From positions 1,495,001 through 1,559,000 of the forward strand of contig NZ_CP045696.1 in assembly GCF_009676955.1 (NCBI RefSeq): a stretch of 64,000 nucleotides of DNA, in the 5' to 3' direction. The notes under the pieces were generated by a model that made no database searches, had not been told where the DNA came from, and saw nothing but the letters and a program-made list of their open reading frames with translations. Each line of letters begins with the position of its first letter. The stretch's first letter is position 1. The translations under genes and the position numbers were made by a program. This document shows positions 55,104-58,826 of the stretch, one piece after another. The DNA is from Sodaliphilus pleomorphus. GTDB taxonomy: Bacteria > Bacteroidota > Bacteroidia > Bacteroidales > Muribaculaceae.

Positions 55104-55331
55104 ATGAACCGAATAAGAGAGGTATTGGATGCTAAAGGCATTAGCCAAACAGAATTAGCAAATAGGCTTGGAAAGACTTTCAACATGGTCAATATGTATG
55201 CCTCGAATAAAGTACAGCCTCCTATTCCTGTTTTGTATCGGATTGCAGATATTCTGAATGTAGATGTCAGAGAGTTGCTTATATCAAATCTAATCAACAA
55301 GGGTTGTGCCAATGGCGAAAAAAGAGATTAA
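55104..55331 (+). CDS. XRE-family regulator of the restriction-modification island
   Basis: A 75-residue DNA-binding protein, almost only a helix-turn-helix of the XRE/Cro type (IREVLDAKGISQTELANRLG ... YASNKVQPPIPVLYRIADIL). It resembles controller proteins of restriction systems, which time nuclease expression after entry into a new host. Its 3' end overlaps the methyltransferase-nuclease start by 20 bases, so the two are coupled. The DNA from here to about 58826 is visibly AT-rich, unlike the genes on both sides, suggesting acquisition by transfer. Confidence 0.88.
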   Translation: MNRIREVLDAKGISQTELANRLGKTFNMVNMYASNKVQPPIPVLYRIADILNVDVRELLISNLINKGCANGEKRD

Positions 55332-57234
55332 AACAGACTTTTGGGTGCATGGGTTACTGCAAGAAGCAGGCTTAAACTTGACACCGCAAGGTTGCGACAT
55401 AAAAGAAGTCGATGAAGCATTGAGAACTGCTTCAAAAGCACAAACTGGAAATGCTGGCTATCCTGAATACTGTGGGGTGGTAAAAGATTTCTTGCTTGTA
55501 ATCGAAGATAAGGCATCACTTGACAAGCATCTTGCTAAAACGGAAAAAGGATTGATAGCACAAGATGTCAAAAGTGTAAAGGACTATGCAGTTAATGGGG
55601 CATTGTTTTATGGCTTGCATTTGGCGGCAAATACGTCCTATCATAAGGTATTGGCGTTTGGTGTGTCTGGCAATGAGAAAAGACATCGTATAACTCCTGT
55701 GTTTATAAACGAGAGGGGTGACTATCATGAATTATCCGATGTGGAAACCTTTATTTCTTTTAGTGAAAATAACATAGATGAATTTTATTTGAAAGAAATT
55801 TTGAAGGAAGAAACCGATGTTGAAAAGACAACCGCTGAAATACTCAAAGATGCCGAGAAACTGCACAACGACCTAAGAAATTACGGCAATCTGACAACGG
55901 AACAGAAACCTTTGATTGTTTCAGGTATTATGCTTGCTTTGAGAGAAATCGAGTATAAAACCTTTTCCATTGATTCGCTTGTTGGAGATACTGTAAAAAC
56001 TGACGGTCAGAAGATTTACGAAGCCATCCGAAGCAATTTGCAACGTGCGAATGTAACGCCTGACACGAAACGCGATAAACTTTTGAGCCAATTTGCTGTT
56101 ATAAAGGACACGACCAAAATCAACGAGAAAGACGAAACTTTAGGCAAAACCCCATTAAAACATTACACGGAGTTTCTTTATAACAGCATCTACAAGAACA
56201 TACGTTACCAAAACTCGGCAGAAGATTATTTGGGCCGTTTCTATGGGGAATTCATGTCATACTCAGGTGGTGACGGACAAACATTAGGCATTGTTCTTAC
56301 CCCTAAGCATATAACTGAATTGTTTTGCGAACTGGCAGATTTGAAAGTTGATGACAAAGTGCTTGACCCTTGTTGTGGTACAGCAGGTTTCCTGATTGCC
56401 GCCATGCATAAGATGGTCAAGCAGACCAACGATGAGGCGCAAAGAAGACATATTAAACGTGACCAATTATTTGGAATTGAATTGCAGCCTTATATGTTTA
56501 CCATTGCTACAACAAATATGATACTTCGTGGCGATGGGAAGAGCAACTTGCACAATTGGGATTTTTTGAAACATAATCCAAGCCAATTACAGTTGAAAGG
56601 ATGCACCGTTGGTATGATGAACCCACCTTATTCACAAGGCTCAAAAAGTAATCCAGACTTGTATGAAATCAGCTTTACGGAACATTTGCTTGATTCTTTG
56701 GTAGAGGGAGCAAGGGCTATTGTTATTATTCCACAATCTTCGGTAACGGGAAAAAGCAAGGAAGAACAGAATATCAAAAATAACATACTCAAACATCATA
56801 CTTTGGAAGGAGTTATTACACTTAATAAAAACACGTTCTATGGTGTGGGAACAAACCCATGCATTGCCGTGTTTACGGCTGGCATACCTCATGACAAAGG
56901 TCATAAATGCAAGTTTATCAATTTCGAGGATGATGGCTTTGTGGTAAGCAAGCACATCGGTTTGGAAGAAACCGCAAGTGCCAAAGATAAACGACAACAT
57001 TTACTTGATGTATGGTTCGGACGCATAGAAGCAGAAACAAAATTTTGTGTAGAGACAACCATAGAGGCAGAGGATGAGTGGCTACATGCTTTCTACTACT
57101 TCAACGATGAAATCCCTACGGAGAAAGACTTTGAAAATACAATGGCTGATTACCTGACATTTGAATTTAACATGATTACTCATGGTAGAGGTTATTTGTT
57201 TGAAGAAGAAAGAAAGGAGGAACAACATGAGTAA
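55312..57234 (+). CDS. BcgI-like restriction-modification subunit (nuclease + N6-adenine methyltransferase)
   Basis: A 640-residue fusion. The N-terminal part has a PD-(D/E)xK-type nuclease pattern, GYPEYCGVVKDFLLVIEDKAS (Asp59, Glu65, Lys67), followed by a strand and helix in the order seen in BcgI A-type subunits. The methyltransferase part has motif I VLDPCCGTAGFL (about 350) and catalytic motif IV NPPYS (about 440). BcgI A is, as I recall, of nearly the same length, and works with a separate specificity subunit. No separate hsdR translocase is present, so type IIB-like or related is more likely than type I. The start at 55312 overlaps the regulator gene. The stop overlaps the next gene start (ATGA type). 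An AAAGGAGG sequence lies 6 bases before that start. Confidence 0.88.
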   Translation: MAKKEIKTDFWVHGLLQEAGLNLTPQGCDIKEVDEALRTASKAQTGNAGYPEYCGVVKDFLLVIEDKASLDKHLAKTEKGLIAQDVKSVKDYAVNGALFYGLHLAANTSYHKVLAFGVSGNEKRHRITPVFINERGDYHELSDVETFISFSENNIDEFYLKEILKEETDVEKTTAEILKDAEKLHNDLRNYGNLTTEQKPLIVSGIMLALREIEYKTFSIDSLVGDTVKTDGQKIYEAIRSNLQRANVTPDTKRDKLLSQFAVIKDTTKINEKDETLGKTPLKHYTEFLYNSIYKNIRYQNSAEDYLGRFYGEFMSYSGGDGQTLGIVLTPKHITELFCELADLKVDDKVLDPCCGTAGFLIAAMHKMVKQTNDEAQRRHIKRDQLFGIELQPYMFTIATTNMILRGDGKSNLHNWDFLKHNPSQLQLKGCTVGMMNPPYSQGSKSNPDLYEISFTEHLLDSLVEGARAIVIIPQSSVTGKSKEEQNIKNNILKHHTLEGVITLNKNTFYGVGTNPCIAVFTAGIPHDKGHKCKFINFEDDGFVVSKHIGLEETASAKDKRQHLLDVWFGRIEAETKFCVETTIEAEDEWLHAFYYFNDEIPTEKDFENTMADYLTFEFNMITHGRGYLFEEERKEEQHE

Positions 57235-57784
57235 CATAAGCGAAAAGTTGTGGAAAGACTTTCTTCTAACAGACTTTTTCGTTCTCGAAAAAGGAAATCA
57301 AAATAATATGGCGTCTTTGAAACTTGGGAATATACCTTTGGTTTCTGCAAAGAAATGTGATAATGGATATAAAGATTTTGTTGCTCCTAATAAGAAGAAA
57401 CTTTATAAAGGCGGCATTATCACTTTGAATAACGACGGAGATGGCGGCGCGGGTATAGCCTATTATCAACCATATACAATGGCTTTGGATAGCCATGTGA
57501 CAGCACTCATTCCTAAATTGCTGATGAACAGGCATCACCTTCTTTTCGTCGCAATGTGTATAACTAAACAACGGAATAGGTTCGGTCATGGTTATTCTCT
57601 GAATAGTAATAGATTACGGTCTTTTAGGTTTATGTTGCCCGTTGACAAGCAAGGCATATATCCTGATTGGCAATTCATGGAAGATTACATGAAAACCAAA
57701 GAACAACAAATTTTGAAACCCACAATAGAAAAGTTATGCAAACATTTGATAATCAACAACATAATAATGGGGGGGGGGGGGTAA
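57227..57784 (+). CDS. Specificity subunit, module 1 (current phase stops here)
   Basis: A 185-residue protein in the present phase. It is one target-recognition module: a divergent DNA-binding part starting ISEKLWKDFLLTDFFVLEKG, and a conserved helical end (LPVDKQGIYPDWQFMEDYMK ... EQQILKPTIEKL) that should bind the methyltransferase subunit or a second module. After ATG at 57767 come 12 more G and then TAA, so the chain ends in MGGGG. Losing one G (12 in all) would read on into module 2. As translated now, it would be a half-size specificity subunit, perhaps acting as a dimer. The start overlaps the previous stop by 8 bases. Confidence 0.85.
   Translation: MSNISEKLWKDFLLTDFFVLEKGNQNNMASLKLGNIPLVSAKKCDNGYKDFVAPNKKKLYKGGIITLNNDGDGGAGIAYYQPYTMALDSHVTALIPKLLMNRHHLLFVAMCITKQRNRFGHGYSLNSNRLRSFRFMLPVDKQGIYPDWQFMEDYMKTKEQQILKPTIEKLCKHLIINNIIMGGGG
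57769..57781 (+). repeat. Phase-variable poly-G tract, 13 G (junction 1)
   Basis: Thirteen G in a row inside the specificity gene, followed directly by TAAATTATCC. 13 G: stop right after the tract. 12 or 15 G: read-through into modules 2 and 3. 14 G: a third frame with about 57 foreign residues. Long G-tracts slip often in replication. Confidence 0.9.
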
Positions 57785-58826
57785 ATTATCCCAGACTCAT
57801 TGGAAAGCATTTAATTTCACAGAAGTATTTACAGAGATACAACGAGGTAAGCGGCTTAAAAAAGCCGACCATTCAGAAGGTACAACACCATACATATCAG
57901 CTACAGCACTCAATAATGGAGTGGACGGATTTGTTGGAAATAAAAGTGGCGTAAGAAAGTTTTCAGATTGCTTGACTATTGCCAATAGTGGCAGCGTTGG
58001 GAGCGCATTTTTTCATCAATATGAATTTGTGGCAAGTGACCATGTTACTCAACTAAAAAGAGACGGATTAGACAAATATGCATATCTTTTTATGATACCC
58101 CTTATCAATCGTTTATCAGAGAAATATAGCTTTAATAGAGAAATAAATGACAATAGGATAAGAAGAGAGAAATTGATTTTACCTACGACAGATGAAGGTG
58201 AAATAGACTTTACGTTTATGTCGTCTTTTATGAAAGGGGTTGAACAAGACATCCTCCGAACAACGCTCAAATTCTTTAATGATAGACAAATTGTTAAAAA
58301 TTCTAAAATGGGGGGGGTAAAATGGAAACACTTCCTCATTCGTGACATGTTTCCTATCCTCGTGCCTGGCAAATCAAAAGGTCTCAACCACATTGAAAAA
58401 GTTGAAAATGGCATTAGTTATCTTGGGGCGACTAATCAGAACAATGGAGTGCTTTGTTTTGTTACCGTCGACAAGAATTTGGTGCAAAAGGGCAATTGTA
58501 TTGCCTTTATCCGTAATGGAGAAGGGTCTATGGGATATTCCGTTTATAAAGCAGAAGATTTTATTGCAACATCAGACATGACATTGGGGTACAATGAACA
58601 TCTTAACAAATATATTGGTACATTCATCACAACAGTTGCAGACAGAATAAGGGGAAAATACAATTTTGGATACAAAAGAAGTGCCACTCGATTGGCAAAA
58701 GAAGTTCTTACTCTTCCTGCGGATGAAAATGGCAATCCTGATTGGGAATATATGGATAGTTATATGCGGAATATTGAAAACGAACATATATTAAGCTATT
58801 TCAAGACATTAGGGTTAGCCAAATAA
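57783..58826 (+). CDS. Specificity subunit, modules 2 and 3 (out of phase with module 1)
   Basis: About 347 codons in the frame entered when junction 1 has 12 G. Module 2 starts KLSQTHWKAFNFTEVFTEIQ and ends with LPTTDEGEIDFTFMSSFMKG and EQDILRTTLKFF. Module 3 starts VKWKHFLIRDMFPI and ends with LPADENGNPDWEYMDSYM and HILSYFKTLGLAK. The shared module ends align with module 1, so the full gene would carry three recognition modules rather than the usual two. There is no ATG before 57921 (only a GTG) in this frame, so in the present 13-G phase these modules are probably not made except by slippage. The stop is at 58824-58826. Confidence 0.8.
   Translation, partial: KLSQTHWKAFNFTEVFTEIQRGKRLKKADHSEGTTPYISATALNNGVDGFVGNKSGVRKFSDCLTIANSGSVGSAFFHQYEFVASDHVTQLKRDGLDKYAYLFMIPLINRLSEKYSFNREINDNRIRREKLILPTTDEGEIDFTFMSSFMKGVEQDILRTTLKFFNDRQIVKNSKMGGVKWKHFLIRDMFPILVPGKSKGLNHIEKVENGISYLGATNQNNGVLCFVTVDKNLVQKGNCIAFIRNGEGSMGYSVYKAEDFIATSDMTLGYNEHLNKYIGTFITTVADRIRGKYNFGYKRSATRLAKEVLTLPADENGNPDWEYMDSYMRNIENEHILSYFKTLGLAK
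58310..58317 (+). repeat. Second poly-G tract, 8 G (junction 2)
   Basis: Eight G between modules 2 and 3, again followed by TAAA. With 8 G the frame reads through as KMGGVKWKH. With 7 G it would stop at TAA right after the tract. With 9 G it would stop after a few codons. The layout repeats that of junction 1. Confidence 0.8.

Follow-up and report, generated by a model that had tools for sequence, protein, structure and literature searches.

A BcgI-like restriction-modification locus of Sodaliphilus pleomorphus with a three-module specificity array and simple repeats at its module junctions

We analyzed a stretch of 64,000 nucleotides from Sodaliphilus pleomorphus (contig NZ_CP045696.1, positions 1,495,001 to 1,559,000; hereafter the window), which is part of a single-contig genome of 3.34 Mb. 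The window contains a restriction-modification (R-M) locus whose specificity (S) array carries three target recognition domains (TRDs) separated by G-tracts. We consider it likely that this is a BcgI-like system in which slipped-strand mispairing alters how many recognition domains the S subunit has. If this is correct, one small commensal R-M locus would hold at least three DNA specificities per population through random slippage, and slippage would alter both phage defence and genome-wide methylation.

The locus comprises a combined restriction and modification (RM) subunit, the S array and a small upstream gene:

55104..55331, + strand: small regulator of the XRE/Cro-C1 type (HTH_3, E 2.4e-12 on 55104-55325; stop taken from the sequence; overlaps the RM start)
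55312..57234, + strand: RM subunit, nuclease-like N-terminal part and N6-adenine methylase (N6_Mtase, E 2.1e-33; PADLOC Type IIG REase_MTase)
57227..57784, + strand: module 1, TRD and helix, 185 amino acids (aa) (PF01420, E 1.3e-12; coding to 57781, TAA at 57782-57784)
57769..57781, + strand: junction-1 tract of 13 G, out of frame as assembled
57786..58307, + strand: module 2, TRD and helix (PF01420, E 3.9e-18; open, but no start is usable in the module's own frame)
58310..58317, + strand: junction-2 tract of 8 G, in frame with module 2 as assembled
58308..58826, + strand: module 3, TRD and helix (PF01420, E 1.3e-7; fused in frame to module 2)

The three modules, taken singly, all score above the cut-off of 22 bits for Pfam Methylase_S (PF01420), with 48.7, 66.7 and 32.4 bits for modules 1, 2 and 3, respectively. 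All three pairs also match one another by blastp (27-29% identity; E 3e-17 to 3e-21), so that none of the modules is non-homologous. A separate comparison gave 31% identity between modules 1 and 2 and 28% between modules 3 and 2. An earlier note on this DNA had described three homologous recognition modules in a row, and these results bear it out; its coordinates, motifs and G-tract linkers were also found to be correct when re-read from the sequence.

The gene content suggests that the window encodes a BcgI-like system (Type IIB, or Type IIG with a separate S). Profile matches place a nuclease and an adenine methylase in one fused RM protein: the best PADLOC profile is Type IIG REase_MTase (E 7e-168; residues 5-632). 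The nuclease part would be indicated by this profile and by an IEDK motif, which we take to belong to the nuclease-like part, as we take CGTAGFL and NPPY to be N6-adenine methylase motifs. The RM protein is 48% identical to a protein of phage phi-42. The separate S gene with TRD modules adjoins RM, the S array starting (57227) inside the RM 3' end so that the start of module 1 overlaps the RM stop, and the S side matched the PADLOC profile Specificity_II. As assembled, one TRD is readable per S, two being one of three possible states. We found no sign of a Type I system with a separate HsdR and a nuclease-free HsdM: the best Type I methylase profile reached only E 7e-39 against 7e-168 for Type IIG, and no open reading frame (ORF) longer than 742 aa overlaps 50-64 kb of the window, the neighbors not having been searched with an HsdR profile. 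Nor does the locus resemble an invertible hsdS (shufflon), since all listed module matches in 127 loci (up to 4.5 kb downstream) lie on the RM strand, a recombinase not having been sought. Finally, the 13-G and 8-G runs are frame-changing repeats within the coding region, as in phase-variable R-M systems.

These two runs are the sole G or C runs of at least 7 nt in the window. A 9-G pattern gave five overlapping matches relative to 0.61 expected from shuffles, and the whole genome holds three G runs of at least 10 nt (the 13-G run among them) and no C run of that length. A chance origin of the tracts was rejected based on the 9-G excess and on the confinement of G and C runs to junctions (see below). 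From the S start as assembled, module 1 alone is readable, with a C-terminus MGGGG and a stop right after the 13-G run; modules 2 and 3 share a single open frame that extends to 58826. A stop closes the module-2 frame immediately upstream of the tract, and the first ATG, GTG or TTG of this frame is the GTG at 57921, within module 2. Since no start precedes this position, joining modules 2-3 to module 1 requires a change of tract length or slippage during expression. The earlier note had considered that modules 2-3 could be a separate gene with its own start. We rejected such an independent two-TRD gene, because it lacks a start and because three-module relatives that have no repeat at junction 1 fuse modules 1-2 instead (20 of 20).

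We propose that slippage in the G-tracts would shift the frame at each junction and would thereby set the extent of the S product: TRD1 only, TRD1-TRD2, or all of TRD1-TRD2-TRD3. A one-TRD S would act as two paired chains, and the site read by the enzyme should then be bipartite and palindromic. The TRD1-TRD2 form should read a non-palindromic site, and the three-TRD form would be expected to show altered or double specificity. As assembled, the locus encodes the one-TRD form, which, to judge from characterized systems, may be active or silent depending on self-pairing of its helix. Slippage in living cells, the assembly of the subunits and the change of DNA target are what we infer, whereas the modules, tracts, frames and their conservation are read directly from the sequences, as are tract-length variants and in-frame three-TRD ORFs in relatives.

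Third modules and junction repeats in related loci

Matches to the RM protein (E ≤ 1e-40) were found in 19 of 397 genomes of the window's family and, at 1e-150, in 4 of 393 genomes of a sample of the order, the window's own genome being included in both. The three relatives from the order sample are outside the array counts, as are matches in 19 plasmid and 8 phage records. Arrays were examined in a set of 127 loci (the best 80 of 395 confirmed genome-contig loci, 28 viral contigs, 18 family loci and the window), which is ranked by similarity and is not a random sample. After dropping 3 duplicate contigs and requiring at least 60% RM identity, 92 loci were retained, and 80 of these had at least 1.7 kb of downstream sequence.

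Among these 80 loci, window included, four have one module, 40 have two, 35 have three and one (L108) has four. A simple repeat is present at junction 2 in all 35 three-module loci, a number that overstates independence because some loci are near-copies (L025/L026, L103/L128). The repeat consists of AT in 17 loci (8-18 units), G in 10 (7-11), C in six (7-10) and AGCCG in two (4 and 16 units). In 15 of the 35 loci, all of them Bacteroidales by record title or kinship, a G repeat is also present at junction 1; in the other 20, modules 1-2 form one ORF without a repeat. Two-module loci present a junction-1 repeat in 10 of 40 cases, one of which (L061) has just five AT units, and the four-module locus has none. 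Eight two-module viral loci with RM proteins 45-48% identical (L116-L118, L120, L121, L124-L126) also lack a junction repeat. Fixed one-TRD genes exist as well, either as RM-TRD fusions (L065, L095, L099) or as a separate single module (L039). The poly-C repeats at junction 2 might have pointed to an inverted module 3, which we rejected because module 3 is on the + strand in all six loci.

All three modules lie in one open frame of 524-566 aa in eight loci (L047, L049, L052, L062, L068, L081, L085, L102). In two of them, L081 and L085 from Moraxella, in-frame AGCCG repeats of 16 and 4 units link TRD2 to TRD3 in ORFs of 564 and 524 aa, respectively. Among the closest relatives of the window, L023 (12 and 11 G) reads through modules 1-2 in a single frame, whereas only module 1 is readable in L022 and L025 (8 and 8 G each) and in L026 (8 and 9 G). 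The earlier suggestion that the locus could give products of one, two or three modules is thus well supported by the relatives, given the junction-2 repeat in 35 of 35 and the eight open three-module frames; three-module homologues with G-tracts were likewise found, at junction 2 in 10 of 35 loci and at junction 1 in 15 of 35.

The placement of repeats was compared among loci with RM proteins at least 43% identical and at least two modules. G or C runs of at least 7 nt were found 44 times in 6,351 bp of junctions, and not once in 109,869 bp of modules or 174,792 bp of RM. Repeats of larger units numbered 12 in junctions, 19 in modules (some of these at module ends) and 0 in RM genes. A or T runs are not specific to junctions, representing 2 of 58 junction repeats versus 89 of 108 module repeats. 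At all 36 repeat-bearing junctions 2 (the 35 and the viral contig L111), module 3 has an open frame of 163-200 codons.

By record titles, this design is present in Bacteroidales, in Streptococcus and other Firmicutes, in Moraxella and in Avibacterium, and the layout spans several phyla. In a quick RM tree, which has flagged long branches (L106-L108) and from which S arrays may move apart, the presence of module 3 changes at least 11 times (8 forced by well-supported branches). The junction-2 repeat type changes at least 12 times; by type, the minimum is AT 5 (3 forced), G 3 (3), C 3 (2) and AGCCG 1. By these counts, the layout has arisen, disappeared or acquired a different repeat on several occasions, its gains and losses being indistinguishable. 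Since the layout recurs with unlike repeats across groups, the switch itself appears to be selected.

More tentatively, and with a chance that we put somewhat below even, the third TRD could be a dedicated, switchable add-on. BcgI-like enzymes would then toggle between the canonical S with two TRDs (or, in the Bacteroidales group, with one) and an S with three, in a widespread design whose repeats (G, C, AT, AGCCG) differ by lineage. With three TRDs, S would enter an assembly of which we found no description for Type IIB enzymes, for example one S pairing its TRDs alternatively and reading two sites at once, or one S holding three RM subunits. The recurrence of the design makes the question of what a three-domain S recognizes testable.

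Some related arrays showed further peculiarities. Four contigs called viral in IMG/VR (L102, L103, L111 and L128), possibly prophages, carry three-TRD arrays with AT or G repeats. Another viral contig, L107, has a two-module array with (GA)10 at junction 1, a fifth kind of repeat. In the Streptococcus loci L042-L044 and L047-L049, RM and the S array lie about 1.07 kb apart.

Tract variation, selection and alternative explanations

Tract length differs between near-identical copies of the array from separate assemblies, as is expected of phase-variable R-M systems. L025 (Bacteroides mediterraneensis) and L026 (Mediterranea massiliensis) show 0 mismatches over 1,560 columns and a single gap, which is the tract (8 versus 9 G). 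L024, from a metagenome-assembled genome (MAG) of Candidatus Onthomorpha whose binning is uncheckable, shows 0 mismatches to both over 804 columns and one gap (9 versus 8 G) at junction 1. The RM proteins of these three loci are identical and their arrays are identical save for tract length, which suggests recent horizontal transfer between taxa with tract length as nearly the sole change. L103 and L128 differ by AT16 versus AT12 and two mismatches.

It could be argued that such differences are assembly errors and that the true gene is a constant fusion of three or two TRDs. Homopolymers are error-prone in assemblies, and many of the relatives are MAGs. However, AT repeats, which are less error-prone, also place junction 2 in frame in some loci and out of frame in others (in frame in 6 of 17), and tracts are found in isolate genomes too (L025, L026, L028). 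We consider this explanation very improbable.

Across 16 hand-picked pairs of module 3 with shared members, the ratio of nonsynonymous to synonymous substitution rates (dN/dS) was 0.05-0.40 in 13, although three of these 13 (0.28-0.40) compare third TRDs of different types. Relative to the window, dN/dS was 0.18 for L022, 0.22 for L023 and 0.06 for L025; it was 0.05 for L042-L043, 0.06 for L043-L049, 0.16 for L047-L048 and 0.36 for L022-L023.

Several observations weigh against slippage as the switch. Two of the 16 pairs are saturated, and L043/L044 reached a dN/dS of 0.79, on four changes. Module 3 of L007 is broken. Two of 65 repeat junctions, both at junction 1 of two-module arrays, join uncleanly: after joining, a stop is met within 14 codons in L059 and immediately in L074, a Moraxella MAG in which an 8-G run is followed by TAA in the module-2 frame, so that no tract length can join its modules 1 and 2. 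None of the 15 double-tract loci has all three modules in frame, and only 2 of the 15 are in frame at junction 1, which for this group hints weakly against the longer forms. Off-frame products terminate after 10 codons or fewer in 100 of 130 cases versus 64.8% of 16,880 background reads, so that short off-frame tails as a design feature show a modest effect over background. Homopolymer lengths in assemblies can be wrong. In addition, TRD1 of JHP1422 is inactive alone (PMC3936762), so a one-TRD state can be silent.

A decaying S gene, that is, a two-domain gene with frameshifts plus a fragment, without function, would account for the single module encoded in the window as assembled, for the broken module of L007 and for the unclean joins of L059 and L074. 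In contrast, the window modules are open, dN/dS in relatives is mostly well below 1, G and C runs lie in junctions and never within modules, and arrays in three taxa differ solely by tract length. We rejected decay as a highly unlikely explanation.

Of the 35 junctions 2, 13 are in frame (6 of 17 for the AT type), near the one-third of random phase.

Modules 2-3, or module 3, might also be translated separately from internal starts, yielding proteins of half an S or of two TRDs that would pair with module 1. An in-frame ATG does lie near the downstream module at junction 2 in 15 of 35 loci and at junction 1 in 18 of 35, some inside an already fused ORF, and module 3 of the window has an ATG at its tract. 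A Type I system of Staphylococcus xylosus is described as needing both a short and a long HsdS (PMC10030836). However, the module-2 frame of the window is without a start before 57921, and such starts are not conserved, 20 of 35 loci having no ATG at junction 2. Moreover, S2 of HpyUM032XIII is described as dispensable and as inactive without S1 (PMC4450513). We therefore regard internal starts as unlikely.

TRD types also occur at different array positions. Late in the RM gene, the DNA of the window and of L022 is 97% identical; identity falls to 45-47% in TRD1 and is 84-97% in the part of the array beyond about 480 bp. This pattern is, judging from the alignment, a TRD swap. Members from different positions were found together in 9 of 38 TRD clusters at 70% identity and in 4 of 33 at 80%, thresholds that were used because clustering at 50% was too loose (one cluster held 113 of 232 modules). 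Accordingly, module 3, together with an out-of-frame module 2, might be a silent donor cassette for TRD exchange by recombination, the repeats mattering little. The shared TRD types, the divergence of TRD1 inside otherwise similar DNA and the domain movement described elsewhere (PMC3077401) are all in line with this possibility. Yet a reservoir needs no repeat, and 35 of 35 third modules lie behind one, with four unit types; in addition, eight loci are open through three modules. Donor cassettes alone are an improbable account of the layout, and TRD exchange and the slippage that we favor can both act.

Known systems and structure models

What we regard as new is a third domain open to switching, in a design that recurs across phyla; a BcgI-like S split by a G-tract, a three-TRD S in Type I systems and TRD movement were already known. 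NgoAV of Neisseria gonorrhoeae has a two-TRD S. A G-tract in its S gene toggles full-length and truncated S, with different motifs, much as proposed for the window, but NgoAV is a Type I system with one G-tract (PMC6789123, PMC7394358). HpyUM032XIII of H. pylori UM032 is BcgI-like, with an RM fusion and an S gene whose two TRDs are separated by a 12-G tract that splits the gene. Its switch from one to two TRDs across the tract was shown experimentally: S1 alone methylates the palindrome CYAN7TRG, and fused S1-S2 methylates CYAN7TTC (PMC4450513). Compared by description, it differs from the window in having two TRDs and one tract instead of three TRDs and a tract per junction. Two other BcgI-like systems of H. 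pylori, Hpy99XXII and HP1471/HP1472, have an S gene with a 13-14 G tract able to break the frame, but the S gene is single, no third TRD is described in the text available to us and the unmodified systems are inactive (PMC3936762).

The earlier note had suggested that a three-module S protein might be novel. This does not hold for three modules in themselves, as JHP1422 (Type I; PMC3936762) and an S of Mycoplasma agalactiae (PMC3077401) precede it, and three-TRD HsdS is also attributed to Atack 2020 (PMC12429846). JHP1422/JHP1423 (M.Hpy99XV) of H. pylori J99 resembles the window in its three consecutive TRDs, which give two motifs; TRD1+TRD3, TRD2+TRD3 and TRD3 alone are active (PMC3936762). 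It differs in being Type I and in having TRD2 equal to TRD3; its natural alleles vary by domain content, and the available text mentions no junction repeat. By analogy with HpyUM032XIII and JHP1422, a change in module number would be expected to give different specificities. Simple repeats are reported in 7.9% of Type I hsdS genes (PMC7394358). In the literature searched, which included few subscription papers, we found no account of a BcgI-like system in which repeats control a third TRD, nor of this layout in Bacteroidales.

Sau42I of phage phi-42, termed BcgI-like in a title cited by PMC3077401, and the Type IIB enzyme BsaXI share the two-gene plan of the window. BsaXI differs in having two TRDs in an (RM)2S complex (PMC11997821). 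When solved structures were searched by sequence, the S proteins had 0 matches. AlphaFold models of modules 2-3 of the window (mean predicted local distance difference test, pLDDT, 89.1; predicted template modeling score, pTM, 0.69) and of the in-frame three-TRD protein of L047 (mean pLDDT 83.9; pTM 0.47) both present TRD-helix repeats and both match Type I S subunits and the S of BsaXI. In the L047 model, the helix after TRD2 runs through the AT-encoded IYIYI stretch, with low confidence there, and the pTM of 0.47 means that the relative placement of its three TRDs is not to be trusted.

Upstream regulator and other tracts of the genome

The XRE-type regulator is a possible candidate for a control gene and lies outside the system core. 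XRE-related sequence was found upstream of RM in 12 of 120 loci searched, the window counted.

Two other tracts were observed in the genome. A 10-C run (coding strand) at position 2977718 lies at a frame change in a gene on the complement strand, which we take to be UbiA-prenyltransferase-like; from its sequence, this gene is a candidate for a second phase-variable gene in this genome. An 11-G run at position 1289757 lies between two apparent genes, whose products are presumably a TPM-like protein rich in Gly and a protein similar to SecD.

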